A DNA stretch of 54,882 nucleotides from an uncultured Mycoplasmatota bacterium. Its GTDB lineage: Bacteria > Bacillota_I > Bacilli_A > RF39 > UBA660. The position numbers and the translations under genes were made by a program. The stretch spans positions 1-54,882 of the forward strand of contig CANPPW010000004.1 of the NCBI GenBank assembly GCA_947576095.1. Direction: 5' to 3'. Position 1 is the first letter of the stretch; every line of letters starts with the position of its first letter. Below are positions 1-54,650 of the stretch, piece by piece. The notes under the pieces are model-generated. The model searched no databases, was not told the DNA's origin, and saw only the letters and a list, made by a program, of their open reading frames with translations.

Positions 1-32
1 CCCTTTTTTACTACATATGTTTTTATTCCCAT
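1..32 (-). CDS. Start of a gene running off the left edge
   Basis: An ATG at 30-32 on the minus strand is preceded by an AAGGAAG ribosome-binding site at a good distance. It opens a frame (MGIKTYVVKKG) that stays open to the window edge. It follows the small helical genes of type VII module A in the same direction, so it is probably the next member of that operon. Only about ten codons are visible, so no function can be given. Confidence 0.45.
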   Translation of the reverse strand, partial: MGIKTYVVKK

Positions 33-86
33 TTCTTTCTTCCTTTTCTTTGGTTACTCTATACATGCACTAATTAATCATCATCT

Positions 87-335
87 CTACTTACTAGATA
101 CCCTCTTTAAAACAATCGGTATAATATTTTCATTTAAATGTATTTTTAAATTTTCTAGACTTTGTCCTATCTTATCCAGGCGATTTATATCAGCCCTTTT
201 ATTATCAATTAAAATACTATCATCTAAAGTTGTTAATATGCCATCAAAATGATTATAAAAAGTAATAACATTATTTTTTATTTCATACAAATCTTGAAGT
301 ACTTTATGATATCTTTTTTTTAATTCTTCATCCAT
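87..335 (-). CDS. Small helical protein of type VII module A
   Basis: This 82-residue protein is Lys/Glu/Asp-rich and predicted largely alpha-helical, with heptad-like hydrophobic spacing. It has no signal peptide, membrane segment or WXG motif that I can see. It is the fourth gene after yukD in the run essC1-yukD-WXG-187aa-99aa-82aa, 9 bases after its predecessor, so it is almost certainly co-transcribed. Small helical partners encoded beside type VII substrates often act as secretion chaperones or heterodimer partners. That role is an inference from position and size; I do not recognise the family. Confidence 0.6.
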   Translation of the reverse strand: MDEELKKRYHKVLQDLYEIKNNVITFYNHFDGILTTLDDSILIDNKRADINRLDKIGQSLENLKIHLNENIIPIVLKRVSSK

Positions 336-344
336 ATAATCACC

Positions 345-644
345 CTACTTGTAGTCTATTATTTCTATAAATCTTTTTTCTGTTTCTTTCATGGCATTTT
401 TATATCGAATTAAGGTATTTGTTAATAGATATATATACAACCTTCGATTGTCGTCTATTTGTTTAAATATAGCTTTCATTTGTAAAATATCCTGTTCAAT
501 CAAAGAAGAGGTATCACTGATGTAACCATCTGATAAAGTATTTAAAGATTTTTCTATTTTGGATAATGTTTCCTCTTCTGATTCTATATACATAGCTATT
601 TTACTCATATGATTTTCTAATTCAGTCTCATTAATTTGATTCAT
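345..644 (-). CDS. Small helical protein of type VII module A
   Basis: This 99-residue all-helical protein reads as two long amphipathic helices with a break near residues 38-46. That is the size and layout of a WXG100 protein, but no W-x-G turn is present. An AAGGAGA ribosome-binding site lies about 11 bases before the ATG. It sits between the 187-residue and 82-residue genes of module A with short spacers. It could be a partner or antitoxin-like chaperone of the neighbouring WXG-like proteins; this is inferred from context only. Confidence 0.6.
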   Translation of the reverse strand: MNQINETELENHMSKIAMYIESEEETLSKIEKSLNTLSDGYISDTSSLIEQDILQMKAIFKQIDDNRRLYIYLLTNTLIRYKNAMKETEKRFIEIIDYK

Positions 645-660
645 ATTGGTTCCTATCTCC

Positions 661-1224
661 TTATAAAAATTGTTCTATCTCAAATTCATTAATTTTTGTT
701 ATAGATAATTTAGATAGTTTAAAGGTAACTTTCTTTTCAATATCTTCTATTATATTATAATATTCCCTGATTTTTTCTCTTGAAACTTGCAGATCTATAT
801 TTATTTTTTCATATTCGTCTATTTGCTTATCAATTTTATTTTTTAATTCTGAATCAAATGATATATCTAAATCTTTATATTTTTTCAAAATCATTTCAAT
901 TTCTGATAATAAAAAATCATATTTTTCGATCACAGCATCTTTGGTTTCTAAATCACACGTAATTTTTTTTCCCAATTCTTTATATCTTGTTAGAATAAAA
1001 AAAAATAAATCTCTACGATCTTTTATATTCCCCACGAGAACCTCTGTTTTGTTCTTTTCTTTTTCTATAGCATCATAAAACTTTACTGCCTTATTATCAT
1101 GCCAATATACGGAAGAGGAGGTAATTGTATTAAACAGATTGGATTTGATCTGTTCATATAATTCAATCAACTGGTCTAATTTTGTGATTTCTTGGTCCAA
1201 TTCTTCAATATCTATCTTAACCAT
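661..1224 (-). CDS. WXG-like N-terminal protein with helical extension
   Basis: I place the start at the ATG at 1222-1224, because an AGGTG ribosome-binding site precedes it. A 15-codon upstream extension of the frame lacks such a site. The product is 187 residues. Its first ~90 residues look like a WXG100 helical hairpin: the turn reads Y-W41-H42-D43 and is followed by A and F at the spacing seen in W-x-G...A...F proteins. Residues ~95-187 form long, Lys/Glu-rich coiled-coil helices. There is no signal peptide, as expected for type VII substrates. It may be a substrate or an LXG-like effector scaffold without a toxin domain; the role is inferred. Confidence 0.65.
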   Translation of the reverse strand: MVKIDIEELDQEITKLDQLIELYEQIKSNLFNTITSSSVYWHDNKAVKFYDAIEKEKNKTEVLVGNIKDRRDLFFFILTRYKELGKKITCDLETKDAVIEKYDFLLSEIEMILKKYKDLDISFDSELKNKIDKQIDEYEKINIDLQVSREKIREYYNIIEDIEKKVTFKLSKLSITKINEFEIEQFL

Positions 1225-1314
1225 TACATTCACCTGTATTCTTTTTCCCAAATATATAGCTATTATCAAAATAATAACTATATATTTAGAAAAAAGGATT
1301 TTTCTAAATACTTT

Positions 1315-1956
1315 TTATTTACCTGTAAAAGCAGCTTCAATTTTACCTTTAGTATCACCATATTGTGCAACAGTCTGGTCAATTGCAGATTTTACAGCGC
1401 CAGTCATTTCAGTAGTAGTACTTTCTAAATTCGTTTTAATACTAGATAAAGATGAAACTAAGTTTGCTTCCTGACTACCACCTACAAATCCACAATTTTG
1501 TACAGCAGAAGTTGCCTTTTCAAGTGCTGCACTTGCACTAGATGTGATTTGTGATAATGATGCAACTACACCTGGAGTTGATTCTACATCAACACCTCTA
1601 GTTCCTCCAATATTTTCCTGAATATTACCAACATCAATTTGGGTATTATTTGGCGTAAAAGCCACTGTACTATACTCTGTTTTTGTATCAGCTGCCCAAT
1701 TACGTGCAGCACTATTCATAGCGTCTGCTACACTCTCAAAAATTGTTGTAGTTTGTTTTACTAAACTATCAATCGCTGGTTTAAATTTGTTTGTAAAAAA
1801 GTCCTGAGCATCTTTACAAGCCCATTTATCTGCCATACCATCTACAAACTTATTTTGCATTTCAGTAGTAAGTGCTCTTATTAAATCTTCATACGCACTT
1901 GTAACTCCATTAATTGATGTACTAACTAATTGTGGATCAAATCCAGTTAATGCCAT
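1315..1956 (-). CDS. Long WXG100-like type VII secretion substrate
   Basis: This 213-residue protein starts with a helical region containing W45-A46-C47 followed by A and FF. This is a variant of the W-x-G turn in which Gly is replaced by Cys. A second half (about 100-213) is Ser/Thr/Ala/Gly-rich with another helical pair and a second cysteine, C155. It has a strong GGGAGG ribosome-binding site and a probable promoter of its own at 2007-2035, which suits an abundant secreted protein. Canonical WXG100 proteins are about 100 residues, so this is roughly double length. The Cys pair might form a disulfide after export; that is inference. It lies directly downstream of yukD and essC1. Confidence 0.75.
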   Translation of the reverse strand: MALTGFDPQLVSTSINGVTSAYEDLIRALTTEMQNKFVDGMADKWACKDAQDFFTNKFKPAIDSLVKQTTTIFESVADAMNSAARNWAADTKTEYSTVAFTPNNTQIDVGNIQENIGGTRGVDVESTPGVVASLSQITSSASAALEKATSAVQNCGFVGGSQEANLVSSLSSIKTNLESTTTEMTGAVKSAIDQTVAQYGDTKGKIEAAFTGK

Positions 1957-2006
1957 ATTTTCTACCTCCCTAAATTCATAAGCTATCTTGTAACTTATCT
2001 ATTTTG

Positions 2007-2035
2007 ATAATAGCATAATTATATTACCTGCGCAA
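2007..2035 (-). promoter_or_regulatory. Probable sigma-A promoter of the long WXG gene
   Basis: On the minus strand TTGCGC and TATTAT are separated by 17 bases, about 50 bases before the start codon of the 213-residue WXG protein. An overlapping TATAAT is also present. It would allow expression of the substrate independent of essC1. Confidence 0.5.
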
Positions 2036-2071
2036 CACACATTGTCACAATTTTACAAATGTTTTTATGTT

Positions 2072-2347
2072 TTACACTATTTTGGTATGATCGCAGAGTA
2101 AAACAAGTTCTGTTCCATTGCGAATATCTGTCTCTATCACAATGTCATTATTATTATAAATGGTCCCACTTGTTTTATTAATTAGAAAAAAGGTATCTTT
2201 TATATCTAATCCAACCCCTGTTAAATCTGAGATAGATTTTACCATTAATTTATTGATTTTCCAAATCAATTCATTTACTGGAATAAATAAATCAAAATTA
2301 CGATCTAAAGCGGGAACCAATAATTTAATCAACACTTTATTTTCCAT
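2072..2347 (-). CDS. yukD: YukD/EsaB-like ubiquitin-fold protein (module A)
   Basis: The 91-residue product has the beta-rich pattern of the YukD/EsaB ubiquitin-like family that accompanies EssC in Bacillota type VII systems: an N-terminal strand, a P-x-x-x-x-x-D-L-F-I-P turn, one helix, then short strands ending in L-V-L-L. The ATG at 2345-2347 is chosen over one 9 bases upstream because an AAGGTGA ribosome-binding site lies just before it, inside the end of essC1. The two genes overlap by 11 bases, implying translational coupling. YukD proteins are cytoplasmic or membrane-proximal regulators of secretion; the exact role is unsettled. Confidence 0.75.
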   Translation of the reverse strand: MENKVLIKLLVPALDRNFDLFIPVNELIWKINKLMVKSISDLTGVGLDIKDTFFLINKTSGTIYNNNDIVIETDIRNGTELVLLCDHTKIV

Positions 2348-5300
2348 TTTCTTCACCTTCTTTAGGAAAAAAATCTATATATTTTACCAGAGAAATACTT
2401 CCATCCTGGAAAAAATATCCCATATCGTTTTTATAATCTTTTTGCATCTCCCTATTCATTTGTCCAACTCTTAATACACTTTGTTCAGAAACACCTTTTC
2501 CTATCCAAAAACCACTGGTTGGATTAAAAGTCTGGGTATACCAAGATTCAAAGGCAAATCCTTTTAATTTTAAAGCATCATCGACAATAAGTAAAAACAT
2601 TCTTTCATATTTTTTCATATTTTCAACAATCTTAGTAAAACGATCTTTTTCTTGAAGCTTTGTCATAAATCGATTGACTCCATAAAGAATAACTACAATA
2701 TAACCACTATCTTTAGATTCCATTTTTTCTTTTAAAAGAATATCGATTTGCTCTAAATATGCATCAAAATTGCTGTTACAATATCCATTGACCATACTTT
2801 TACAAGGTTCAAGCAATGTCAAAGAATCAATAAGTATTGTTTGCAGATCTTTGATTTGATAAAAAAGATAAAGTAAACTTTGCATAAAAGGATTGATATT
2901 AATAAGCTTATTGGAAGAAATAATGGTTCCTGTATCCATAGTAAAATCATAATAAGCAAGATGTAAATCTCTTTTTGTAATACCAATTGGTATACTTTTT
3001 AATGATCCTGTAAAACTTCCAATTTCCCTAAAGGTTACTACATCAGGAAGAGACGGAATTTTAAGAGCTCTATCTTTTTCACGTAACTTTATTTGATTTA
3101 TAAATCGAATTAAATATTCATTTAATATATTTTCATCCTCAACAATAGAAGCCGTTTGAAATTCATGAATACCATCTTTTAAAAAGAATCCTCTACCCAA
3201 AACATCTCTAGGTCCTGATTTTACCTTTGAACCAAATAAGCTCATATAATCTGTTACATCTTTTAGTTTTAATGCATATATATTTTTACAATTTTGAGAA
3301 ACTTTATTATGTACAGAATTAATTCCATTTGCAGTGATAATATAAATGATTCCATACCTTTCAGAATCACGAATCAACTCTGGCAATTCATCAAATAGGG
3401 TTTGATTATTTTCATATACAGAATCATAATTATTAATGATAATGACTTTCAAAGGTAATTTTTTTGAACTATTTTTAACATAGTTCTCATATTCACCACC
3501 ATAATCTACAAAAAGTTTTTTTCGATTTTTAATTTCCTCGCGAATTAGTTTAAATAAATTATTATATCTTTCCTCCTCACCACTAAATACCATACCTCCG
3601 ATATGAGGTACACTCTGATACCTTCTAAGTGATTCAGACCCATAATCTAGAATATAGTACTGAATTTCATTAACAGAATAATTTTGTATAGTAGAGAAAA
3701 TGATTGTATTTAAGAGCATTTCCCTTTCACTACCATCTGTTCCATAAATAATTGTATTCCCATCTTCTAGAAAATGATAAACAACAAGACCTTGTTCTTG
3801 TTTTTCCGGCGCATCATACTCACCAATAACAGCTTTTACTTGATATGGATTGACCTCTACATTATATTTTTGATATAAATCATTTACTAAAATAATATCT
3901 GGAATATTATCAAGCCATAAACGTTTTGCTCTTTTACCTGTCATATTAGCAACCTCAAGAATATTATTCATAATAGCCGCAAGTTGCTCCCCTCTTGCCT
4001 CTATTTTATTTCCACTACCTGCCTGAATGCTTTTTATAATCTGACCAATCGATCCAATAAAATTAACACTTTTATCGACTTCCTTTACAATTTTTTCAGA
4101 AGGATAATATTTTGCACCACAAAAACCCGATTGTCCTAAAGCAAAATATTCATCATAACCTACTTGTAAATAAAATCTTCCTGCTTGTTTCAAACTAGCT
4201 GCTTCTGGTCTTTTTAGCATCTCCCTACTATCTGCTGCATCTTGTACTTTTAAACATACTCTAAATTTTGTATTAGACCATATTTGGTCATTCACAACGC
4301 CACTTGGTTTTTGTGTAGCCAAAATCAAATGAACTCCTAGACTTCGTCCAATACGAGCGATAGAAATTAAATTATCCATAAATTCTGGTTGTTGACTTTT
4401 TAACTCAGCAAATTCATCACTTATAATAATCAAATGCGGAATCGGTTCGCTCAGTTTTCCTTCATGATAGAATTTTTGATATTTATAAATGTCTATAGTG
4501 CTTTGGTCAAGTTTATCTCTTGCTTCATTGAAAATATGTTGTCTTCTTTTTACTTCACTATCAATACTAACAAGAGTCCTTTTCATCTCTGCTTTATCAA
4601 GATTGGTAATTGTTCCAGCCAAATGTGGCAAACGAATACCTGTTTTTTTATTTTCAAAAGCAAAAGCAAGTCCACCACCTTTATAATCGATTAAAATAAA
4701 AGCTACATCTTCAGGACTATAATTAATGGCCATTGACAATATATAGGTGATAATAAATTCACTTTTCCCAGATCCTGTCATTCCAGCTATAAGACCATGA
4801 GGGCCATGAAATTTTTCATGTAAATCTAAATACATCAAATCATGATTCTCATCTATTCCCACTTCTGCTCGTAATGATTGTGTAGAATCATTCATATTCC
4901 ATCTATTTAAAATATTTAGTTGTTCTACTTTCCCTACTTTCTCCATTTCCAAAAAAGAAATAGCATCTGGTAAATTTGCAATTCCCTGTTCAAATTCAAT
5001 GGGAATATTAGATAACACTTTTGCAACAGAAAGCATATCTACAGTGTATTCAATTTCGTCCTGAAAACTAATTGTCTCTTGATTCTCATAAGAATTTTTC
5101 AAAACTCCAGATTTATTAGTACTACTCATTGTGATAAAGTTAGAACATTTGCTAGGTAATTTTGAAAGTCTATCTTCTAAGATAATCAAACTAAACCCGA
5201 TATTTTCATCTACTTCTGTTATATTCTTAATCAAATCTAACTTTTTAACCATAGTATAATCATCCACAATAATTAGATAATATGGTTTAATAGTAGTAGG

Positions 5301-6908
5301 TTTATCTTTGGCATTAGAAATGCGAAAATTAAATTCTCCCATCAAATATTCAGATAAATTTTTTGCTTCTTCCTTATTTGCAGAAAAGAAACGTATGTTT
5401 TTAGCATTATTAAAGGTATGATTATCATATCTTAAATAATCCCATCTACTTTTTTTCATCTCATTTGTAAACAATACAATCTTTAAATCTTCATAACTAT
5501 AAAACGTCATAAATTGTAACAAAATATTATCTATAAAATAGGATTTTTTATGATCATTTCCAATAATAGCTGTAATATAATTTTCATAAAAGGAATACTC
5601 CATAGGAACATTTTTTATATATTTATATTTTTCAACAGTCGCATCCGCTTTTTTCTTTAGATCACTTTCTTCAATGGAAAAACCACCCTTTGGATAATTA
5701 ATTTTAACATTCAAAGGAACATCCCCTGTGCCAATACGAGCTACAAGGAAATCACTTTGCTCAATTCTTTTATCCCATAAGTGAAAATTCTTATTCGCTA
5801 CAATTTGAAGACACTCTTTCACTGTAAGCAAATTTTCTATTAAGATAGATCTTTGAACAATCATCTCAGATTCCAATTCTTTTTCTTTTTCTTTCAAATA
5901 AGACTCATATGCCTGAATAGTTTTCTCTTTTCTTTTCTTTTCCATTCTCTTATTATACATGTTCGTGACAATTGGCCAGAGCAATGTAGAAATTAACATA
6001 ACAGATCCTGTAACTAGTTGTGGCCAACATCGAGAAATTGTAGTTTCCCCTCTTTGTAATTGTAAAACAGTATTAATTAGCATAACAACAGACATAATTC
6101 CCATTGTCATCATGGGTCCAATTGTCAAAATAAGGGGGAGTGTTTGCCTATCTGTTTGTGCTGGAGGAGCGTCAATATCTATTTCTTTTGTTTCAATCAT
6201 TCGTCTAATACGAGGGGATTTGGAAAAATATTCATCTTCTTTGTAAAGATTTTCATCTTTTATATCCCTATTTTTATAAGATTCATTTTGAATCAATCGT
6301 AAAGGATTTAATTTGGCCACTTCTTTATTAATAGAAACGGAATCGCCTGGATTATTCATCAGTAATAGATTAGGTAAAAATAACATTTTCAAACCATATA
6401 TATCTAAAGAATCTCCTGGATTCAAATAACATTTTTCTGTTTTTATAGCCCTCTGGTTGATATATATATTAATATTTTTATTTTTTTCTAATATAAAGGA
6501 TCCATCTTCATATTTAACTTTTACAATTAAATCTTTTAATAAATAACAACTATACCAGATATTACAAGTATTATGATTTCCTATAGTAAGTTCAACAGAT
6601 TGATCATAAGAATAGGTTGTAAATGTGTTTTCATAAGCCTTACTAATATATATTAAATATTTGGTATCATTTCTTCTTAAAGTATAAAACGTATGAATTG
6701 TTAAAGGTAAATAATTTACATATTCCCGATTTCCACCAATTATTTGAACCTCTTCTGTTGCATATAAAACCCATCTTCCTTCTCTAGATTCAATATTAAT
6801 TAATTTCGCTTCTTCATCAGGATTTTCATCAAAACTAAAACTACCTGATACTTGAGTAGGTAAATGGAAATAAACAATTTTATCTGGTAAATAAAGTGTA
6901 ACCTTCAT
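2337..6908 (-). CDS. essC: EssC type VII secretion ATPase, paralog 1
   Basis: This 1523-residue protein has the full EssC layout. It has two FHA-like domains (about 1-90 and 100-185), two membrane helices (about 258-282 and 295-316), then three tandem FtsK/SpoIIIE ATPase domains. The first ATPase domain is intact: Walker A ends in G714-K715-S716 and Walker B in D831-E832. In the second domain the P-loop is degenerate, reading G-T-D-G-S-E1061-R1062-E1063 where GKT/S is expected. The third is also degenerate, as is common. EssC is the membrane motor that recognises and exports WXG-type substrates. It has its own promoter and leads the module A operon. Its paralog at 12597-17177 differs most clearly in keeping the second P-loop. 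Confidence 0.93.
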   Translation of the reverse strand: MKVTLYLPDKIVYFHLPTQVSGSFSFDENPDEEAKLINIESREGRWVLYATEEVQIIGGNREYVNYLPLTIHTFYTLRRNDTKYLIYISKAYENTFTTYSYDQSVELTIGNHNTCNIWYSCYLLKDLIVKVKYEDGSFILEKNKNINIYINQRAIKTEKCYLNPGDSLDIYGLKMLFLPNLLLMNNPGDSVSINKEVAKLNPLRLIQNESYKNRDIKDENLYKEDEYFSKSPRIRRMIETKEIDIDAPPAQTDRQTLPLILTIGPMMTMGIMSVVMLINTVLQLQRGETTISRCWPQLVTGSVMLISTLLWPIVTNMYNKRMEKKRKEKTIQAYESYLKEKEKELESEMIVQRSILIENLLTVKECLQIVANKNFHLWDKRIEQSDFLVARIGTGDVPLNVKINYPKGGFSIEESDLKKKADATVEKYKYIKNVPMEYSFYENYITAIIGNDHKKSYFIDNILLQFMTFYSYEDLKIVLFTNEMKKSRWDYLRYDNHTFNNAKNIRFFSANKEEAKNLSEYLMGEFNFRISNAKDKPTTIKPYYLIIVDDYTMVKKLDLIKNITEVDENIGFSLIILEDRLSKLPSKCSNFITMSSTNKSGVLKNSYENQETISFQDEIEYTVDMLSVAKVLSNIPIEFEQGIANLPDAISFLEMEKVGKVEQLNILNRWNMNDSTQSLRAEVGIDENHDLMYLDLHEKFHGPHGLIAGMTGSGKSEFIITYILSMAINYSPEDVAFILIDYKGGGLAFAFENKKTGIRLPHLAGTITNLDKAEMKRTLVSIDSEVKRRQHIFNEARDKLDQSTIDIYKYQKFYHEGKLSEPIPHLIIISDEFAELKSQQPEFMDNLISIARIGRSLGVHLILATQKPSGVVNDQIWSNTKFRVCLKVQDAADSREMLKRPEAASLKQAGRFYLQVGYDEYFALGQSGFCGAKYYPSEKIVKEVDKSVNFIGSIGQIIKSIQAGSGNKIEARGEQLAAIMNNILEVANMTGKRAKRLWLDNIPDIILVNDLYQKYNVEVNPYQVKAVIGEYDAPEKQEQGLVVYHFLEDGNTIIYGTDGSEREMLLNTIIFSTIQNYSVNEIQYYILDYGSESLRRYQSVPHIGGMVFSGEEERYNNLFKLIREEIKNRKKLFVDYGGEYENYVKNSSKKLPLKVIIINNYDSVYENNQTLFDELPELIRDSERYGIIYIITANGINSVHNKVSQNCKNIYALKLKDVTDYMSLFGSKVKSGPRDVLGRGFFLKDGIHEFQTASIVEDENILNEYLIRFINQIKLREKDRALKIPSLPDVVTFREIGSFTGSLKSIPIGITKRDLHLAYYDFTMDTGTIISSNKLININPFMQSLLYLFYQIKDLQTILIDSLTLLEPCKSMVNGYCNSNFDAYLEQIDILLKEKMESKDSGYIVVILYGVNRFMTKLQEKDRFTKIVENMKKYERMFLLIVDDALKLKGFAFESWYTQTFNPTSGFWIGKGVSEQSVLRVGQMNREMQKDYKNDMGYFFQDGSISLVKYIDFFPKEGEENGK

Positions 6909-10440: not shown

Positions 10441-10783
10441 TAAAAAAAGAGATCCTAGATCTAATCTCTAAAAAATATAATATATTCGCGAAATATACCA
10501 TTTTTCTAAGTGCACAAGATATAGCCTGATAAACTATATTGCACCGAGTTTATGGGGACTGGAGTGTGTAGCTAACACACTGCACAAAATTATGTGTCAG
10601 TCACCTACCATTAAGTTTTTCTTTCTTGTTTTTTTTGTAACTATTAACATACAGTTCTGATAAGATTTATTTTGGTAATGTATCTTATACCTTTTATGCC
10701 TTTTTCTTTTGTCTCCCCTACAAATAAACTATAATTTCAATATTTGATCGTTTAATGAATGGCTTGACTTTCTGTATGTTATG
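10441..10783 (-). ncRNA. Structured RNA candidate A, about 340 nt
   Basis: This gene-free minus-strand stretch has a TTGACA-17-TATGAT promoter at its head and an intrinsic terminator at 10448-10469 (AGAGAT/ATCTCT plus T7). In between, a 10-bp stem TAACATACAG/CTGTATGTTA (10772-10781 with 10645-10654) closes a 5' domain. That domain holds a CAAATA/TATTTG hairpin, the stretch GGGGAGACAAAAG and an ATAAGAT/ATCTTAT hairpin. The 3' part has GACTG/CAGTC closing two hairpins (one AGTGTGT/ACACACT), then a GTGCA-ATATAG hairpin. No SRP, RNase P, tmRNA or T-box signature is seen. It shares layout and a 13-mer with RNA-B. Confidence 0.6.
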
Positions 10784-10788
10784 ATATA

Positions 10789-10817
10789 ATCATATACTAT
10801 TCCTATCATCTTGTCAA
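10789..10817 (-). promoter_or_regulatory. Promoter of RNA candidate A
   Basis: On the minus strand, perfect TTGACA (10812-10817), 17 bases, TATGAT (10789-10794). The predicted start falls about at 10782, exactly where the 5' strand of the closing stem begins. Confidence 0.7.
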
Positions 10818-10844
10818 CAATATTTCTAAGAATCAGAATTACAA

Positions 10845-10873
10845 TTGACGAAAAAAAATTTTTTTGATACAAT
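10845..10873 (+). promoter_or_regulatory. Promoter of the WYG operon
   Basis: Plus-strand TTGACG, 17 bases (mostly an A8/T7 tract) and TACAAT, 37 bases before the ATG at 10911. It is divergent from the promoter of RNA-A. Confidence 0.7.
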
Positions 10874-10910
10874 AAATTTGTAATATTATTATAGTAAGGT
10901 GGTGAAATTT

Positions 10911-11261
10911 ATGGCTGTAGCAAAAACCGAATTCTATGTAGACCTAGCAGGAGTTGAACAATATCAAAAATCATGTATGACATATCTTGACAATATTTCT
11001 ACCGCAATGAAGTCTATTCAAAAACAATTTAATGCATTAGCAACTAATAAAGGAGTTTTAGGCAACTTCGAAACATTAATGTTAAACAATGCCAAAGCTG
11101 CTGGAAGAAGGGCTTCTCTAGCTCAAAAAAGAAAAATAGGACTAGAAAAAAAATTAAATGCAGATATATCATACCAAACTAGACTATTATTAGCCTCTTA
11201 TCAACAAGCACAAAAAGCTGTAGAAAACGTGGAAAATGTTCCAACTGGAAATAATAATTAA
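10911..11261 (+). CDS. Small helical protein beside type VII module B
   Basis: The start is the ATG at 10911, behind an AAGGTGG ribosome-binding site; a GTG frame start 12 bases upstream is inside that site. The 116-residue product is predicted as a helical hairpin with a basic second half and a flexible Pro/Thr/Gly/Asn tail. The WXG100 size and shape fit, but the turn region (K-G-V-L-G-N-F) has no tryptophan. The next gene, 17 bases on, encodes a WYG protein, so the two may form a heterodimer like EsxA/EsxB; this is inference. I do not recognise a named family. Confidence 0.7.
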   Translation: MAVAKTEFYVDLAGVEQYQKSCMTYLDNISTAMKSIQKQFNALATNKGVLGNFETLMLNNAKAAGRRASLAQKRKIGLEKKLNADISYQTRLLLASYQQAQKAVENVENVPTGNNN

Positions 11262-11278
11262 GAAAGGAGGAAAGCATT

Positions 11279-11566
11279 ATGGCAAAAACCAAAAATGCAT
11301 TGGGTGGAGATCCAGTCAAAATTAAAACTACTACTACTAAAATTAAAGATGAATTAGATAAAATCGAATACGCTAATAACCAACTCGAACAAATGGTTTT
11401 AACTATGGAAACAAAAATCTGGTATGGTTCTACTAGAGCTGAAAAATGGTATAAAACCACTAGAGATCATATTGAAAATACAAAAAAAGTATTAATTAGT
11501 ATGAGAGAAGCAAATAATAAAGTTATAACTATAGCTGATGCTTTAGACCAGTCTAAATCTTCTTAA
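11279..11566 (+). CDS. WXG100-like protein with a W-Y-G turn
   Basis: This 95-residue protein has two helices joined by I-W48-Y49-G50-S-T, matching the W-x-G turn of the EsxA/YukE family, and has no signal peptide. WXG100 proteins are secreted by EssC-type machines, usually as dimers. AAAGGAGG precedes the ATG. A terminator follows at once, giving a two-gene plus-strand operon divergent from RNA-A and convergent with module B. Both strands around it carry type VII genes, supporting export by EssC2 or EssC1. Confidence 0.75.
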   Translation: MAKTKNALGGDPVKIKTTTTKIKDELDKIEYANNQLEQMVLTMETKIWYGSTRAEKWYKTTRDHIENTKKVLISMREANNKVITIADALDQSKSS

Positions 11567-11579
11567 AAATATATATGTG

Positions 11580-11603
11580 AGATGACAAAAATCATCTTTT
11601 TTT
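11580..11603 (+). terminator. Terminator of the WYG operon
   Basis: AGATGA/TCATCT stem with a 6-base loop followed by seven T residues, 14 bases after the stop codon. Confidence 0.8.
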
Positions 11604-11621
11604 ATAAATTTTAACATATTA

Positions 11622-11655
11622 AAACCTTGATTTTTCTACATAGAAATCAAGGTTT
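11622..11655. terminator. Terminator between convergent genes
   Basis: A 12-bp perfect stem (AAACCTTGATTT/AAATCAAGGTTT) lies 45 bases downstream of the minus-strand acidic gene and after the plus-strand terminator. It probably acts on the minus strand; the T-run is weak. Confidence 0.6.
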
Positions 11656-11699
11656 ATTTTACAATCTAATCCTACATTAATAGAATGCTATATCTCTAA

Positions 11700-11933
11700 T
11701 TACCCAATTCCACCAAGAAAATCATCGATTTCTCCTTCATCATTATCCGTTAAATCATAATCATCTGTATTATCATCAATAGCTGAATATTCAAATGAGT
11801 CGCTATTTTCATCTTCATCATCATCTTCATCATCAATTTTTGTTGAAAAATCAAGATTATGATTATTCATATATTGTAAGGCAAGTTTTAAATCATCTGG
11901 CATATTCTCTTCAATTACAAATTTATTATTCAT
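11700..11933 (-). CDS. Small, strongly acidic protein of type VII module B
   Basis: The start is the ATG at 11931-11933, behind GAGGGA; four upstream codons fall in that site. The 77-residue product has a short helical N-terminus (about 1-30) and an Asp/Glu-rich, probably disordered tail ending in D-D-F-L-G-G-I-G. It lies downstream of essC2-yukD2 on the same strand, separated from them by RNA-B. A highly acidic small protein could shield a basic partner such as the 116-residue neighbour; this is speculation. No family is recognised. Confidence 0.65.
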   Translation of the reverse strand: MNNKFVIEENMPDDLKLALQYMNNHNLDFSTKIDDEDDDEDENSDSFEYSAIDDNTDDYDLTDNDEGEIDDFLGGIG

Positions 11934-11991
11934 CTTATCCCTCATTTCTACGTTATATTTATCATAACATATATTTTAAGTTCAAGTAAAT

Positions 11992-12229
11992 AAAAAAAAA
12001 TTATTTAACAAATCATTAAATAATTTTCTAGTTTTAGGAACTATAAATTTATATATTATCAGTATATAAACTATAGTCTCTTATCAGCTGAGTTTTTCTT
12101 TCTCATCATCTAATAGTTACAAGTTTTTAGCTGTGGTAAGTTGTTTTCACATTTAAAGCGAATTTGCTCCCAAATCATATTATATCATGATATATCAATG
12201 TATACTAATATATCATACTAAAAACTCTA
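11992..12229 (-). ncRNA. Structured RNA candidate B, about 235 nt
   Basis: This minus-strand region of ~390 bases without a gene is headed by a consensus promoter. It ends in a strong terminator (AAATTATTTAA/TTAAATAATTT plus T9, 11992-12026). A 5' domain is closed by GTTTTTAG/CTAAAAAC extended by AGTTA/TAACT (12218-12234 with 12114-12130). It contains an ATGATATAT/ATATATCAT hairpin and the stretch GGGAGCAAAT. The 3' part has GAG/CTC around a purine-rich loop and an ACTATA-TTTATATA hairpin. The 13-mer AGAAAGAAAAACT (12091-12103) is shared with RNA-A at the equivalent place. Its terminator ends 58 bases before the acidic gene, mirroring RNA-A. Confidence 0.6.
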
Positions 12230-12234
12230 ACTAT

Positions 12235-12263
12235 AGTATAAAATAAAATTTAAAAACTGTCAA
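12235..12263 (-). promoter_or_regulatory. Promoter of RNA candidate B
   Basis: On the minus strand, perfect TTGACA (12258-12263), 17 bases, TATACT (12235-12240). It is stronger than most promoters of the window and is followed by no coding frame. Confidence 0.75.
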
Positions 12264-12335: not shown

Positions 12336-12587
12336 TCAAATTAAAATAACAGAACTTCCATTTTGTAAACCAGAGGTTTTTACTATTTCACCATAAGAAA
12401 TTGGCTGCATTTTTCGTTTGTCATATAAAATTGCGCCCCTCCTTACCTGATAACTCCCTTGTGTAAGCTCACACACTGCTTTTTGTAACAACTCTATTAT
12501 TTTACCTACAGTAATATTAATCGGAAACCAAATTTCATAGTTTTTTTCAACACTTGGTATATAAACACTTACTAAGATTTTTTCCAT
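12336..12587 (-). CDS. yukD: YukD/EsaB-like ubiquitin-fold protein (module B)
   Basis: This 83-residue protein has the same ubiquitin-like pattern as its module A counterpart: a strand, a P-S-V-x-K-N-Y-E-I-W-F-P turn, a helix with I-x-E-L-L, and a C-terminal S-V-I-L-I. Its AAGGTGA ribosome-binding site spans the stop codon of essC2, and the ATG follows 9 bases after it, so the genes are coupled. It is presumably the dedicated partner of EssC2. Confidence 0.72.
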   Translation of the reverse strand: MEKILVSVYIPSVEKNYEIWFPINITVGKIIELLQKAVCELTQGSYQVRRGAILYDKRKMQPISYGEIVKTSGLQNGSSVILI

Positions 12588-12596
12588 AGTATCACC

Positions 12597-15500
12597 TTAT
12601 TTCTGTATATAACGAACATAATTTCTCTTACTATTGATGACTACAATTGCAGTATTGGCATCAACATTTTCATTATATGAACTTGCATATTCCGCATTAA
12701 TAATGGATTGATCATCAAAATTTTCTCCTAACCAAATAGCTGTAGTAGAATCCATCAAATCAAACCATCTTCTTTTCTTAATGGTTTTCATCATCCCATA
12801 TTCATCCGCCAATATAATCTTGAATACAGAACTTGCTTTTGCTTCTAGGATAAAATCATCTACTGTAATCACTTCCTTAGTACCATCCTGTTTTACCTTT
12901 TCTAAATGTTGTTCTAATTTCTGATATCCGATAATGATAATAGGAATTTTTTCAGCAATTTCTTTTCCTATATATTTTTGAATATTTTTATATAAATATA
13001 TAAATAATTTTCGGAAATTAGAATTATAATATTTTATTTTTCCCTGCTCTTCAATCGTAACACTTTCCGATGCATCAATTACAATAGGATGAACATTCCT
13101 AGTCATTCCCATAATTTTAACTAAGGCTGGAATAAACTTTTCAAGAAACCTTATTTCACTTGACGAAATAAAAGTCAAATAATTGGTAAAATTATAGCAA
13201 AATGGTTCAATTGTTTGTCTATCTACTCCAATTGGAACCTTATCTAATGTAGAAATAGCTTCTCTTACTGTATTTATTTCGATCACTTCTGGCATAATAG
13301 GAATTCTTTTTGCTTTTGCTGAAGTAATTTTATTTAACTGATTAAAAATATAATCTAAATTGGAATCTAAATGGTCTTCTTCAAAAATAAGTGCACTTTG
13401 AAATTCATAGACATTGTCCATTTTGATAAGTCCCCTACCTGGATACTCGGCTGGAATCACCTTATCTGTTCCAAATAAATCATAATAATCAGTATGATCC
13501 ACAACCTGCAAGCCTATTTTCTGTGGAAAACTATTTTCAACACGATAACCAAGCGAATTTACAGAAGAAGCTGTGACAATAAAGGTAATTCCATTTTTAC
13601 TACAGTCTCTAATTAAAGATGTAAAAATATCATCATATATATCTTCATATTCCTCTTTGAAAACATCAAAATCATTAATAAATATTAAAATATTAGGTAA
13701 AACAACACCTGTTTTTTTATAATAACTTTGATAACTGCCACCATAATCAGAAAATAAAGATTTTCTTTTTTGAGATTCAGAGACCATAATTGAGAATAAA
13801 CGCTTCACTTTTTCATCATCTGAAACAGTTAAAAAATCTCCTACTTGTGGTGCTTTTTCAAAGATTTTTAAAGTTTGTGCGGAAAAGTCTAATATATATA
13901 TATTTAATTCACTTGTATCATGACTTACAATAGAAGAATATATAATAGTAGATAATAAAGTTGTTTTCCCACTACCTGTCATACCACATATAAAACAGTT
14001 CCCTACCTCTGTAAGTGGTAAAGTTACAACCCCTTGTTTCTGATTTCTTGGATTATCAAATTCTCCAATTACAGGATTAATCACACATTTTTTAACCTCT
14101 AAAGGATATTTTTGTTTTATATTTTCTACATAAATAATAGAAGAAACATTATCAAGCCATAACTGCTTTTGTTTATATTGCTTTTCTCTTGCAACATTTA
14201 TTAAATAATGTAAAACATTAGAAAGTTCCTCACCAAGACTTATATGTGCCTCTTTTGCCTCTTCCACCTCTTCTACACTCTTAATAATCTCTCCTGTATG
14301 ATTAATAAAATCTAGTGCATTATCTACCTTTGAACGAATTTTTTCTGATGGAAAATAACTGGTTCCACTATAAGCAGATTGTCCTAAAACAAAATATTCA
14401 TCGTATCCTACTTGCAAGTAAAATCTTCCTGCTTCTTTTAAATAAGCGGCATCATTTTTTCGAATCATTTCTTGACTATCCTCGGCCGTTTGAACCTTAC
14501 AGCATACCTTAAATTTACTATTACTCCAGATTTGTTCATCAACAACTCCACTTGGCTTTTGCGTGGCTAATATTAAATGAATTCCCAAACTACGGCCAAT
14601 ACGAGCTGCACTAACAAGCTGTTCCATAAAATCTGGTTGTTGATCTTTTAACTCGGCAAATTCATCACAAATAATAAATAAATGAGATAAAGATTCCTTT
14701 AATAAACCATCTCTATATAATTTTTGATATTTATAAATATCTATGGTCCCTGTTCCTACTTGTTCTTTTGCACTATTAAATAAAATCTGTCTACGATTCA
14801 GTTCGCTTTCAATAGATACCAGTGTTCTTTTCAACTCTGCTTTATCTAGATTTGTAATTGTTCCAATTAAGTGAGGAAGTTTTTCTTTAGTCTTTCTATT
14901 CTCAAAAGCACCAGCAAGACCACCACCCTTGTAATCAATCAAAACAAATTGAACTTCATCTGGTCTATAATTAACTGCCATAGACAAAATATAAGTAATA
15001 ATAAATTCACTTTTCCCAGATCCTGTCATTCCCGCAATAAGTCCATGGGGACCATGTTTTTTTTCATGCAAATCTAAAACAAGAAGATTGCCATTTTCGT
15101 CTACACCTACAGGTGCTTGCAAACTATTCATCAAACTACTATTATCCCATCTGTTTGCAACATTCAGTTGTTCCACTTTTCCAACACGGTACATTTCTAA
15201 AAATCCCAAATTTTGTGGCAAATTGGCCATTTTTTCTGTTACAACTTGAATAGGAATATTAGCTAATAAATCCATGCATAAATCAAAGTCTAAACCATTA
15301 TCATGATCTATAAATTCAGGAACAAAAGATTCCAGCTGTTTAGAGGTCATTACATTTTCAAAAAATGTTCCACTTTTTTCATTAAAATTAATAAATTCAG
15401 AACATTCATTAGGAATATTGGTAATTTTCGCATCAAACATAAGAATACTAAACCCAATATTACATTTATGTTCTAAAATATCTTTTATAATCTTTAGATT

Positions 15501-17177
15501 TCGATACAAAAGAATATTATCAGTTACAATTACATAATAGGGCAAAAAATTTTTATATACTTTTTCAGACTCATCCTTTTCATCTGCATTTATTCTTTCA
15601 ATAAATACTTTTTCCAAATAGGAAGATAATATTTGTGCTTCTTCTATATTGGTTGCAAAAAAACGAGTACTATAGTCACTAGTAAAACAATGATTTAATT
15701 TTTTTATAGAACTGAAATGATCCTCTCCTTTTCTATCTGTCAATATAACCAATTTCATATCACTATAACTTTGTAAAGTTACAAGTTGTAACAAAATAGA
15801 TTTCATATATCTATATTTATCTACATGATCATTGATAAAGGAAACAATATGATGAGATGTCAAGGATAGTGTTACTGGCACATCAGACACCGTTTTATGA
15901 GATTCAATTAATTCATCAATTTGATCACGCAGTTCATCATGTTCCATTTCAAATTCTTCTTTTGTATAATCAATTTTCCCATCTAAATCAACAGTTCCTG
16001 TTCCTAATCGAATTTTTAAAAAATCATCATACTCAATATTACGAGAAAATAAATTTGCTTTTCGATTTAAAATCGTATCTTGACATGCTTTAAGTGAAAT
16101 ACTATTATTTTGCAAAATAATTCTTTGTTCGTTAATAGCATCCTCTAATATCTTTCCTTTTTTTTGTAAGTAAGATGTATAAACACGTATTCTTTTCTTT
16201 TCATTTTGTTTTCGTATCTTTTCCTCCATTTTTCTTTCAATAAATGGCCAAACGACCCCTACAACAAGCATTGCTACACACATTAAAATAGATGTCATAT
16301 TAGATTCCATAGAGGCCTTATCATGAATATTTTTAATTGCATAATATCCAGTTATAGCTGATGTAGAACACATAATAGCAGAAGGAATAATTGTCATAAA
16401 AATAGAATATTTATTTTTTTCTTCTTTTGGTGGAGGGGAAGCTATTGGAAGATTTAACTGTTCTATTTTATTTTGAAAAACAGGTGCTTTAAAAAAATAA
16501 TCTTTTTCATCGTAAAAATTTTTATATAGCTTCATAGGTAAAGACTTAGAGATAGTGCTAGTAAAAGGTGGTGGATCTAATAGTTTTCCACCATTTAATG
16601 AAACAGCATTTTGTGGATTATTAATTAATAATTGTTCCCCTAAAATAACGATTTTTAAACCCATAATAAATATTTGATCTGTTTGATTTAAAAGAGTGTG
16701 ATCCTGTCTTTGCTTATTCACATATATAGGAATGAGAGGTTGTAAATTTGTAAGTTCCCATCTATCATTTTCATATACCAGTTTTACTTGTTTTTCATCA
16801 ATCCCATTATATAAATATTTAATATCACAAGTACTTGATTTCCCAATAATCACCTCAGTATTAGAGGAAACCATTTTTCTCATATAAGAAACCTCATTAG
16901 ATGGACAAGTATAAATTAAAACAATTTCATTATTATATACCCTTAATTGATAAAATTTATACATCTCTAAATATATAAAAGAAACAGCCTGATGATTTTG
17001 AAGAACTTTGGTATCAGTATCACTTAAGATTCTCCATTGGTTATTATAAGCTTCTATACTAGCTAAATCCCTTTTATTTCCATCTTTATCATAATCAGTT
17101 AAAATATAGTTCCCAGAAACTATTTTTGGTAGTTCAAATGTAAAATATTCTTCTGCATGTATTATATATATAAACAT
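12597..17177 (-). CDS. essC: EssC type VII secretion ATPase, paralog 2
   Basis: This 1526-residue EssC is collinear with paralog 1. It has FHA-like domains (second one around I-I-G-K-S-S-T-C-D, 109-118), membrane helices at about 258-282 and 294-313, and three FtsK-type ATPase domains. Domain 1 is intact (K722 in Walker A, D838-E839 in Walker B). Domain 2 also has a complete P-loop, G-M-T-G-S-G-K1071-T, unlike paralog 1. Domain 3 is degenerate. It is the motor of module B, with its own promoter, and is coupled to yukD2. The region around both P-loops is very similar between paralogs, while the N- and C-terminal parts differ, suggesting separate substrate sets. Confidence 0.93.
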   Translation of the reverse strand: MFIYIIHAEEYFTFELPKIVSGNYILTDYDKDGNKRDLASIEAYNNQWRILSDTDTKVLQNHQAVSFIYLEMYKFYQLRVYNNEIVLIYTCPSNEVSYMRKMVSSNTEVIIGKSSTCDIKYLYNGIDEKQVKLVYENDRWELTNLQPLIPIYVNKQRQDHTLLNQTDQIFIMGLKIVILGEQLLINNPQNAVSLNGGKLLDPPPFTSTISKSLPMKLYKNFYDEKDYFFKAPVFQNKIEQLNLPIASPPPKEEKNKYSIFMTIIPSAIMCSTSAITGYYAIKNIHDKASMESNMTSILMCVAMLVVGVVWPFIERKMEEKIRKQNEKKRIRVYTSYLQKKGKILEDAINEQRIILQNNSISLKACQDTILNRKANLFSRNIEYDDFLKIRLGTGTVDLDGKIDYTKEEFEMEHDELRDQIDELIESHKTVSDVPVTLSLTSHHIVSFINDHVDKYRYMKSILLQLVTLQSYSDMKLVILTDRKGEDHFSSIKKLNHCFTSDYSTRFFATNIEEAQILSSYLEKVFIERINADEKDESEKVYKNFLPYYVIVTDNILLYRNLKIIKDILEHKCNIGFSILMFDAKITNIPNECSEFINFNEKSGTFFENVMTSKQLESFVPEFIDHDNGLDFDLCMDLLANIPIQVVTEKMANLPQNLGFLEMYRVGKVEQLNVANRWDNSSLMNSLQAPVGVDENGNLLVLDLHEKKHGPHGLIAGMTGSGKSEFIITYILSMAVNYRPDEVQFVLIDYKGGGLAGAFENRKTKEKLPHLIGTITNLDKAELKRTLVSIESELNRRQILFNSAKEQVGTGTIDIYKYQKLYRDGLLKESLSHLFIICDEFAELKDQQPDFMEQLVSAARIGRSLGIHLILATQKPSGVVDEQIWSNSKFKVCCKVQTAEDSQEMIRKNDAAYLKEAGRFYLQVGYDEYFVLGQSAYSGTSYFPSEKIRSKVDNALDFINHTGEIIKSVEEVEEAKEAHISLGEELSNVLHYLINVAREKQYKQKQLWLDNVSSIIYVENIKQKYPLEVKKCVINPVIGEFDNPRNQKQGVVTLPLTEVGNCFICGMTGSGKTTLLSTIIYSSIVSHDTSELNIYILDFSAQTLKIFEKAPQVGDFLTVSDDEKVKRLFSIMVSESQKRKSLFSDYGGSYQSYYKKTGVVLPNILIFINDFDVFKEEYEDIYDDIFTSLIRDCSKNGITFIVTASSVNSLGYRVENSFPQKIGLQVVDHTDYYDLFGTDKVIPAEYPGRGLIKMDNVYEFQSALIFEEDHLDSNLDYIFNQLNKITSAKAKRIPIMPEVIEINTVREAISTLDKVPIGVDRQTIEPFCYNFTNYLTFISSSEIRFLEKFIPALVKIMGMTRNVHPIVIDASESVTIEEQGKIKYYNSNFRKLFIYLYKNIQKYIGKEIAEKIPIIIIGYQKLEQHLEKVKQDGTKEVITVDDFILEAKASSVFKIILADEYGMMKTIKKRRWFDLMDSTTAIWLGENFDDQSIINAEYASSYNENVDANTAIVVINSKRNYVRYIQK

Positions 17178-27012: not shown

Positions 27013-27096
27013 AGTCTCTCTCCTTCCGCCATGACCCTTTTGGCCATAGAAATTTAATAGCTACTATAGTATAGCAACTTTTCAAAAATTATGCAA
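27013..27096 (-). promoter_or_regulatory. rpmE promoter and structured leader
   Basis: Minus-strand promoter TTGCAT (27091-27096), 17 bases, TATACT (27068-27073). The short leader holds an ATGGCC/GGTCAT-type hairpin around AAAAG, immediately before a GCGGAAGGAG ribosome-binding site. Autoregulatory L31 leaders are known in Bacillota; this is a candidate only. Confidence 0.6.
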
Positions 27097-41411: not shown

Positions 41412-41606
41412 AGTAAAAAAATATTCTAAATTAAGGACGAAAAACCGCGGTACCACCTTATTTCATAGAATATTCTTGCACTCTTTATATAACGCATGTA
41501 TGCGGCCATTGGCAACTCCAGAATCATTTAAAATAGTTTTCTTTGTTTATTTTCACCAATCATAAACTCTCTATAAAATTCCACTATTTCTCTTTCCTTC
41601 ATAGTT
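41412..41606 (-). promoter_or_regulatory. T-box riboswitch, methionine specifier
   Basis: The minus-strand leader of dut-metG contains the T-box sequence AAGGTGGTACCGCGG (41445-41459). A competing terminator (AATATTCTA…TAGAATATT, T7 tail) spans 41415-41478. Stem I is formed by AACT/AGTT, GAA/TTC and AAATAGT/ACTATTT. Its specifier loop reads TAAATGA, so the codon is AUG followed by A. The apical part has a GTTTA/TAAAC hairpin with the GGTGAAA loop. Uncharged tRNA-Met would stabilise the antiterminator and switch on both genes. Confidence 0.92.
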
Positions 41607-41620
41607 TTTTAAACAATATA

Positions 41621-54520: not shown

Positions 54521-54542
54521 ATAATCACCATTTCAAAAAAAA

Positions 54543-54616
54543 AGCACACACATTTAGAGGTACTTAAGGCTGCTATCTTCCGATTCTGACCTGGTTCAAA
54601 CATAAATGTTGTGCTA
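54543..54616 (-). ncRNA. ffs: Signal recognition particle RNA, small type
   Basis: This minus-strand RNA of about 74 nt has the domain IV signature AGGTCAG … CGGAAG … AGCAGCC (symmetric and asymmetric loops with a GGAA tetraloop). It is closed by a long stem with GCACA…ATTTA pairing to TAAAT…TGTGTGC. A T9 run follows directly as terminator. It binds Ffh for membrane targeting. It is the short bacterial form without an Alu domain, unlike the ~270-nt Bacillus scRNA. It lies upstream of tadA; in Bacillus it is between tadA and dnaX. Confidence 0.93.
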
Positions 54617-54621
54617 CATAT

Positions 54622-54650
54622 AATATATATGATAAGAATAAATAAATCAA
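54622..54650 (-). promoter_or_regulatory. Promoter of the SRP RNA
   Basis: Minus-strand TTGATT, 17 bases, TATATT, placing the start at about 54615, right at the base of the RNA's terminal stem. Confidence 0.65.

Follow-up and report, generated by a model that had tools for sequence, protein, structure and literature searches.

What are the two small structured RNAs encoded among the type VII secretion genes of an uncultured Mycoplasmatota bacterium, and why are there two of them? We addressed this question in a 54,882-nt stretch of contig CANPPW010000004.1 (the window), in which a preliminary description, made from the sequence alone, had recognized two minus-strand transcripts, RNA-A (10441-10783) and RNA-B (11992-12229), each with a promoter, a strong terminator and no coding frame, and had proposed that they are members of one apparent, undescribed RNA family with a role in type VII regulation or in a linked defence/competition system. 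Reading about 85 homologs, we first asked whether these RNAs are real, then to which family they belong, and finally what distinguishes the two-RNA arrangement from that of their relatives. We conclude that RNA-A and RNA-B are best read as the two subunits of a type VII-linked RNA heterodimer that evolved from a homodimer, although the biochemical role of such a complex is unknown.

Structure of RNA-A and RNA-B

The features to which we refer below are as follows.

12235-12263, minus strand: RNA-B promoter, TTGACA-17-TATACT
11992-12232, minus strand: RNA-B, the B-type subunit, which keeps loop CUGAUAA and lacks UUAUCAG
12218-12227, minus strand: RNA-B P1, 5' strand GAGUUUUUAG, pairs with 12121-12130
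12121-12130, minus strand: RNA-B P1, internal 3' strand CUAAAAACUU
12111-12122, minus strand: RNA-B dimer strand UUGUAACUAUUA, complementary to RNA-A 10635-10646, standing where homologs carry a palindrome
12090-12104, minus strand: RNA-B GAGAAAGAAAAACUC hairpin, containing the 13-mer shared with RNA-A
12080-12088, minus strand: RNA-B P2, 3' strand GCUGAUAAG, pairs with CUUACCACAGC at 12130-12140; P2 covaries in our alignment A1
12049-12069, minus strand: RNA-B hairpin with kissing loop CUGAUAA (12056-12062)
11992-12025, minus strand: RNA-B terminator-like A-U stem and T run, lacking the UUAUCAG loop of one-piece relatives
10789-10817, minus strand: RNA-A promoter, TTGACA-17-TATGAT
10441-10783, minus strand: RNA-A, the A-type subunit, which keeps loop UUAUCAG and lacks CUGAUAA
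10772-10780, minus strand: RNA-A P1, 5' strand AACAUACAG
10646-10654, minus strand: RNA-A P1, internal strand CUGUAUGUU
10635-10646, minus strand: RNA-A dimer strand UAAUAGUUACAA
10613-10627, minus strand: RNA-A AAGAAAGAAAAACUU hairpin, containing the shared 13-mer
10510-10544, minus strand: RNA-A hairpin with kissing loop UUAUCAG (10526-10532), not a terminator here
10442-10469, minus strand: RNA-A terminator-like hairpin with T run
10899-11261, plus strand: W1, small WXG-type protein gene divergent from RNA-A, homologous to W1 at other split loci
11279-11566, plus strand: W2, small protein with W-x-G (alignment A3; weak homology)
11700-11945, minus strand: acidic protein after RNA-B, related to one in the split locus of genome G009 (E about 1e-5)
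12336-12587, minus strand: YukD-like gene just upstream of RNA-B (Pfam YukD E=0.0078, below cut-off)
12597-17177, minus strand: EssC-type ATPase with FHA and FtsK/SpoIIIE domains

The observation made in the preliminary description is confirmed. The two promoters are the best of the region in a promoter scan, each with 11/12 consensus matches. The 13-mer AGAAAGAAAAACT occurs exactly at 12103-12091 and 10626-10614, and in both RNAs the 5' end pairs with an internal strand. Both RNAs fold better than dinucleotide shuffles (z -2.8 for RNA-A and -4.6 for RNA-B), and no coding frame on the minus strand explains either of them, there being only fragments of 21-47 aa. Two details require correction. 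The GGGAG(A)CAAA stretch, which had been described as part of the shared layout, is present in both RNAs but not in the 5' domains of the 11 B-type homologs we tested, so it is probably incidental and we reject it as a family element. Also, the terminators are weaker than had been claimed: our scan called neither of them, and the RNA-B stem is all A-U, although both RNAs end in a T run; promoters and terminators alike are predictions. The layout is nevertheless more than chance, because it is conserved and covaries in homologs.

RF03040 is the core of a free-standing RNA

To which family do these RNAs belong? Nucleotide BLAST with RNA-A or RNA-B in 40 relatives gave only short A-T-rich matches, of which, among those inspected, only one was real (locus L086 in genome G005; loci and genomes are designated L and G, respectively, followed by a number). 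No Rfam family reaches its cut-off at either RNA, but a permissive search matched RNA-B over all 92 positions to RF03040 "PGK RNA" (42.1 bits against a curated cut-off of 50.8; E=0.0025 in the 1.9 kb searched), a 92-nt family typed as Cis-reg; RNA-A was not listed. The inner helix, the GAGAAAG hairpin (the shared 13-mer) and the CUGAUAA hairpin of RF03040 are all present in order in RNA-B, whereas RNA-A has the inner helix (by inspection) and the GAAAG hairpin but no CUGAUAA hairpin. Other RF03040 matches in the window's own genome, at E above 1, look like chance hits and are mostly in coding sequence.

RF03040 is present in 43 of 241 genomes sampled from the same order, all of them in the window's own family, and in none of 14 control genomes. 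A covariance model (R1) trained on 34 homologs, with RNA-A and RNA-B left out, finds RNA-B at 43.9 bits (E=1.2e-4 over the window) and finds the RNA in 79 of 385 genomes of the order, while its score for RNA-A is not significant (E=2.4). A sample of the class gave R1 hits only in the same family; a sample of the phylum gave none, an empty answer that, without a positive control, shows nothing; and viral contigs hold no exact match to the core pattern. The named records are mostly assemblies of uncultured gut and rumen Bacilli. Because R1 failed on RNA-A alone, we built a second model (R2) from 18 other A-type RNAs, and this finds RNA-A (R2 positions 1-170) at 10671-10512 with 41.6 bits and E=4.4e-6 over the window, as the only clear hit.

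In 81 of 84 loci a good promoter lies upstream, and the predicted start falls at a strand complementary to the internal P1 strand, which changes sequence while staying paired. Nearly all one-piece copies also have their own terminator. The neighboring genes vary (efp, murG, ffh, ftsW-like and others, by inspection) and lie on either strand; phosphoglycerate kinase was confirmed downstream of one RNA, in one genus (L048; Pfam PGK E=2.9e-135). The Cis-reg label of RF03040 therefore looks wrong.

A palindrome and complementary loops in one-piece RNAs

Between P1 and the GAGAAAG hairpin, one-piece members carry a palindrome with no loop, such as ACAAUUGU, UACACGUGUA, UAUGUACAUA, AUGAAUUCAU and AUAUGAUCAUAU, which changes sequence but stays a palindrome. 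Counted as a helix over 34 sequences, 91.6% of its cells are paired, 6/6 pairs have changes on both sides, and its covariation score of 0.539 exceeds those of shuffled (0.207) and slid (at most 0.163) controls. A zero-loop helix cannot form within one strand, so the pairing must be between two molecules, the signature of a homodimer duplex.

The terminal hairpin of RF03040 has the loop CUGAUAA, and its complement UUAUCAG is in the loop of the following hairpin, usually the terminator, in 67 of 67 distinct CUGAUAA members. In 12 of 12 members with another loop the partner has changed to match (CUGACA../UGUCAG, CUAGUAA/UUACUAG and GACUAA(G)/CUUGUC, the last with a bulge), so that the two loops match in 79/79 distinct one-piece members against a chance rate of 2.4% per window searched. 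One subclade (L085, L115, L120) keeps loop complementarity only with a bulge, and it is not known whether one-piece members form this contact in cis or in trans.

The split form

In the window both features are divided between two RNAs. RNA-B has CUGAUAA but no UUAUCAG, RNA-A has UUAUCAG but no CUGAUAA, and neither has the palindrome. At the palindrome position RNA-A has UAAUAGUUACAA and RNA-B has UUGUAACUAUUA, a perfect 12-bp complement. The A:B pairing is worth -13.6 kcal/mol, against -1.6 for A:A and -3.7 for B:B, and no shuffle reaches it. Over the whole of both RNAs a 12-nt complement is not by itself rare (9/200 shuffles reach it), and the case rests on its position and on the other pairs.

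The same arrangement was found in 18 further loci, 19 in all; in two loci (L105, L109) the two modules seem, by inspection, to be fused into one transcript. Cognate A and B segments match over 10.05 bp on average, against 7.57 for re-paired partners, and none of 200,000 permutations does as well. Aligned column by column, including two further weak pairs (L146, L207), 189 of 231 cells are Watson-Crick, against a permuted mean of 157 and a maximum of 182 in 20,000. Because the rows are related, these permutation and shuffle numbers are not true probabilities; in addition, some cognate complements are short (7 in L244, 8 in L163, about 6 in L146 and L207) and that of L109 is not significant. Compensatory changes include GUAAU/AUUAC to GUAAC/GUUAC (window, L162, L146, L207) and GUAAUU/AAUUAC to GUAAUC/GAUUAC (L217).

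INTERMEDIATES. In genus g73 (G096, G367) two full-length paralogs, each with both loops, are complementary to each other over 11-12 nt at the palindrome position, as read by eye, and G165 has two paralogs with different palindromes, AAAACAAUUGUUUU and AAGCGCGCGUUU. These look like steps from homodimer to heterodimer or to insulated homodimers, although this is inference.

Linkage to type VII secretion genes

A type VII link for all family members, which we had at first doubted, proved to be specific to split loci. W1/W2, EssC or YukD lie within 5 kb of 20 of 27 split loci but of only 1 of 78 one-piece loci; the former count is 15 of 22 if the five loci that trained the W1/W2 models are left out, and four of the seven negatives have under 0.5 kb of sequence on one side. 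Two settings recur: beside EssC/YukD (window, L105, L114, L244), and in a small island between rplL and rpoB (L083, L106, L110). Split pairs neighbor the two small homologous proteins W1 and W2. The W2 of L083 first resembled the exonuclease VII small subunit (Pfam, below cut-off) but is homologous to W2 of the other split loci. The EssC-type ATPase of the window has the FHA and FtsK/SpoIIIE domains of a type VII locus. However, Pfam recognizes neither W1 nor W2 as WXG100, although W-x-G is invariant in the W2 alignment.

As a test on unseen genomes, a W1 profile search found W1 in 8 of 288 genomes. Of the four not previously known to carry split RNAs, three do (G018, G054, G182), while in G088 no RNA was found. 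Strong A-type matches in the same 288 genomes all fall in W1 genomes: A-type RNA and W1 co-occur in 7 genomes, W1 occurs alone in 1, and A-type RNA with a strong score occurs alone in 0 (Fisher about 1e-13).

Discussion

The interpretation offered in the preliminary description is partly supported. It was right that the two RNAs are free-standing, diverged members of one family under structural constraint, and right about type VII, a link that generalizes to split pairs. It was wrong, or incomplete, in holding the class to be unknown, and it missed the main point, that the two RNAs carry complementary halves of two pairing elements and so are partners rather than merely paralogs. Three outcomes had been set out beforehand as counting against it. 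An Rfam match to a known class is nearly what we found for RNA-B, but this does not refute the RNAs; covariation, the absence of which would have been adverse, is present in homologs; and the transcripts expected from the two promoters were not examined, no RNA-seq or bench data, including any assay of A:B binding, having been part of this study.

We therefore favor, with good though not complete confidence, a model in which the ancestral form, still the commonest in this bacterial family, is one RNA of very roughly 230-500 nt that pairs with a second copy of itself through a self-complementary single strand, and whose CUGAUAA loop kisses a UUAUCAG loop. In the window's lineage the gene would be present as two diverged copies that have lost opposite halves, the palindrome having become an A:B complement, with each RNA keeping its own P1-closed 5' domain and the pair being kept with a type VII module (W1, W2, YukD, EssC). 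Comparative sequence evidence shows the free-standing gene structure, the covariation of the pairing elements, the cognate A/B matching and the type VII linkage; that the duplex and loop contacts form in the cell, that the loop contact is in trans in one-piece members too, and that the dimer acts on or with W1/W2 are our inferences. What the complex does is a guess. Because the split form alone is tied to W1/W2, the most economical suggestion, which we hold only tentatively even if the dimer is real, is that it regulates or scaffolds that protein pair.

What else could explain these observations? The rival that survives best accepts the A:B dimer but considers its type VII link to be hitch-hiking on a mobile island, without action on it. 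The rplL-rpoB island of L106 and L110 carries only RNA-B, RNA-A, W1 and W2, which is compatible with a moving cassette, and one-piece RNAs have no such link. However, the linkage persists in several genera and two genomic settings with gene order and strand changed, and A-type RNA was not found strongly in any genome without W1. We consider this possible but doubtful. It is less likely that the two are ordinary paralogous sRNAs, each acting alone, with the complement and split loops coincidental or relics of the ancestral palindrome. In its favor are the shuffle result for 12-nt complements in two A-U-rich RNAs of this size and the common AAUUAC/GUAAUU core that non-cognate pairs still share, but it does not account for the superiority of cognate pairs, with compensatory changes at several positions, nor for B-type RNAs losing only UUAUCAG and A-type RNAs keeping only UUAUCAG in 19 loci. 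That RNA-B is a cis-regulatory leader controlling the next gene, as the Rfam type and the phosphoglycerate kinase gene at L048 would suggest, is very unlikely given the promoters at the 5' P1 strand, the terminator at the 3' end and the varied neighbors. Equally unlikely is that the palindrome is a DNA site for a dimeric protein, as conserved palindromes in DNA usually are, since in split loci neither site is a palindrome and two separate genes instead stay complementary, which a DNA-binding protein does not require.

A more far-reaching possibility, which we consider only slightly more likely than not, is that this is a natural obligate RNA heterodimer made by two paralogous noncoding RNA genes, derived from a homodimer by complementary loss of contacts, as occurs for proteins, and working as a component or regulator of a type VII secretion module together with a pair of WXG-type proteins. 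The core belongs to, or is closely related to, a known Rfam family. An RNA homodimer that became a two-gene heterodimer, linked to a secretion system, is not described in PMC12286853 or PMC7357161 and we know of no other account, and literature searches, which did not extend to most subscription papers, found none on RF03040 or on type VII noncoding RNAs of this sort. A 2020 review states that functional RNA oligomers are rarely seen in nature (PMC7357161). That the homodimer, a two-gene heterodimer and an apparently fused single-transcript form coexist in one bacterial family means that RNA quaternary structure can be followed as it evolves. The reading of RF03040 also changes, from a cis-regulatory leader to a free-standing dimeric RNA, and type VII secretion loci gain a linked RNA component to test.

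Comparison with known systems

The closest known relative is RF03040 itself, found in the same bacterial family, with which RNA-B shares the inner helix CUUA../..UAAG, the GAGAAAG hairpin and the terminal hairpin with loop CUGAUAA. Rfam models only the core, however, whereas the members are free-standing RNAs with P1, a dimer strand and a terminator loop, and the window has the split, two-RNA form, below the family cut-off. OLE, ROOL and GOLLD RNAs (PMC12286853) are likewise large structured bacterial RNAs that form RNA-only complexes, with intermolecular kissing loops supported by covariation, but all three are homo-oligomers, the term "hetero" does not occur in the main text of that paper, and the window has no match to those families at Rfam cut-offs. 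In palindromic RNA homodimers, such as retroviral dimer sites, and in phi29 pRNA (PMC7357161), self-complementary strands or paired loops also join two RNA molecules; their sequences are unrelated, and here the interface has changed from self-pairing to pairing between two separate genes. Finally, tracrRNA:crRNA and U4:U6 are two different RNAs that act as a base-paired unit, but they are not derived from a homodimer, and there is no Cas or spliceosomal partner here.

Variant Arrangements of the RNA Pair and Neighboring Features

In L105 (genome G308, contig C1) and L109 (genome G362, contig C55) the B-type and A-type modules follow each other with no obvious terminator or promoter between them, as if they were fused into one transcript. 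Two genomes, G096 (loci L062/L065) and G367 (L107/L108), each have two full-length paralogues whose strands at the palindrome position are complementary to each other over 11-12 nt. L103 (G314) and L104 (G398) have tandem full-length copies about 310 nt apart, each with both loops. A subclade comprising L085, L115 and L120 has the loops GACUAA(G) and CUUGUC, which are complementary only with a bulged U. In many one-piece loci we also observed a conserved AAACU(A/C)G just before the terminator hairpin (AAACCA in A-type RNAs), to which we can assign no role. Matches to the core pattern in records titled Bdellovibrio, Tenacibaculum and Bacteroidaceae (L149, L184 and L215) were not checked and are probably due to chance or contamination.

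With regard to neighboring proteins, a small acidic protein with an MPDDLK motif is conserved beside split RNA pairs in two genera (window 11700-11945 and locus L114); the window copy has no Pfam match. At L246 (genome G088, contig C10) there is a weak homolog of the small WXG-type protein W1, but no RNA of either type was found nearby. The window also contains a second type VII-like cluster (1-6908) with its own EssC (2337-6908) and YukD-like gene (2072-2356), and neither RNA model gives a convincing hit there, the best being 16.5 bits (E=0.15) at 6025-6087.

The Rfam matches over cut-off in the window were all ordinary:
41430-41611, minus strand, T-box leader
54528-54625, minus strand, bacterial small SRP RNA
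27020-27049, minus strand, L31 leader
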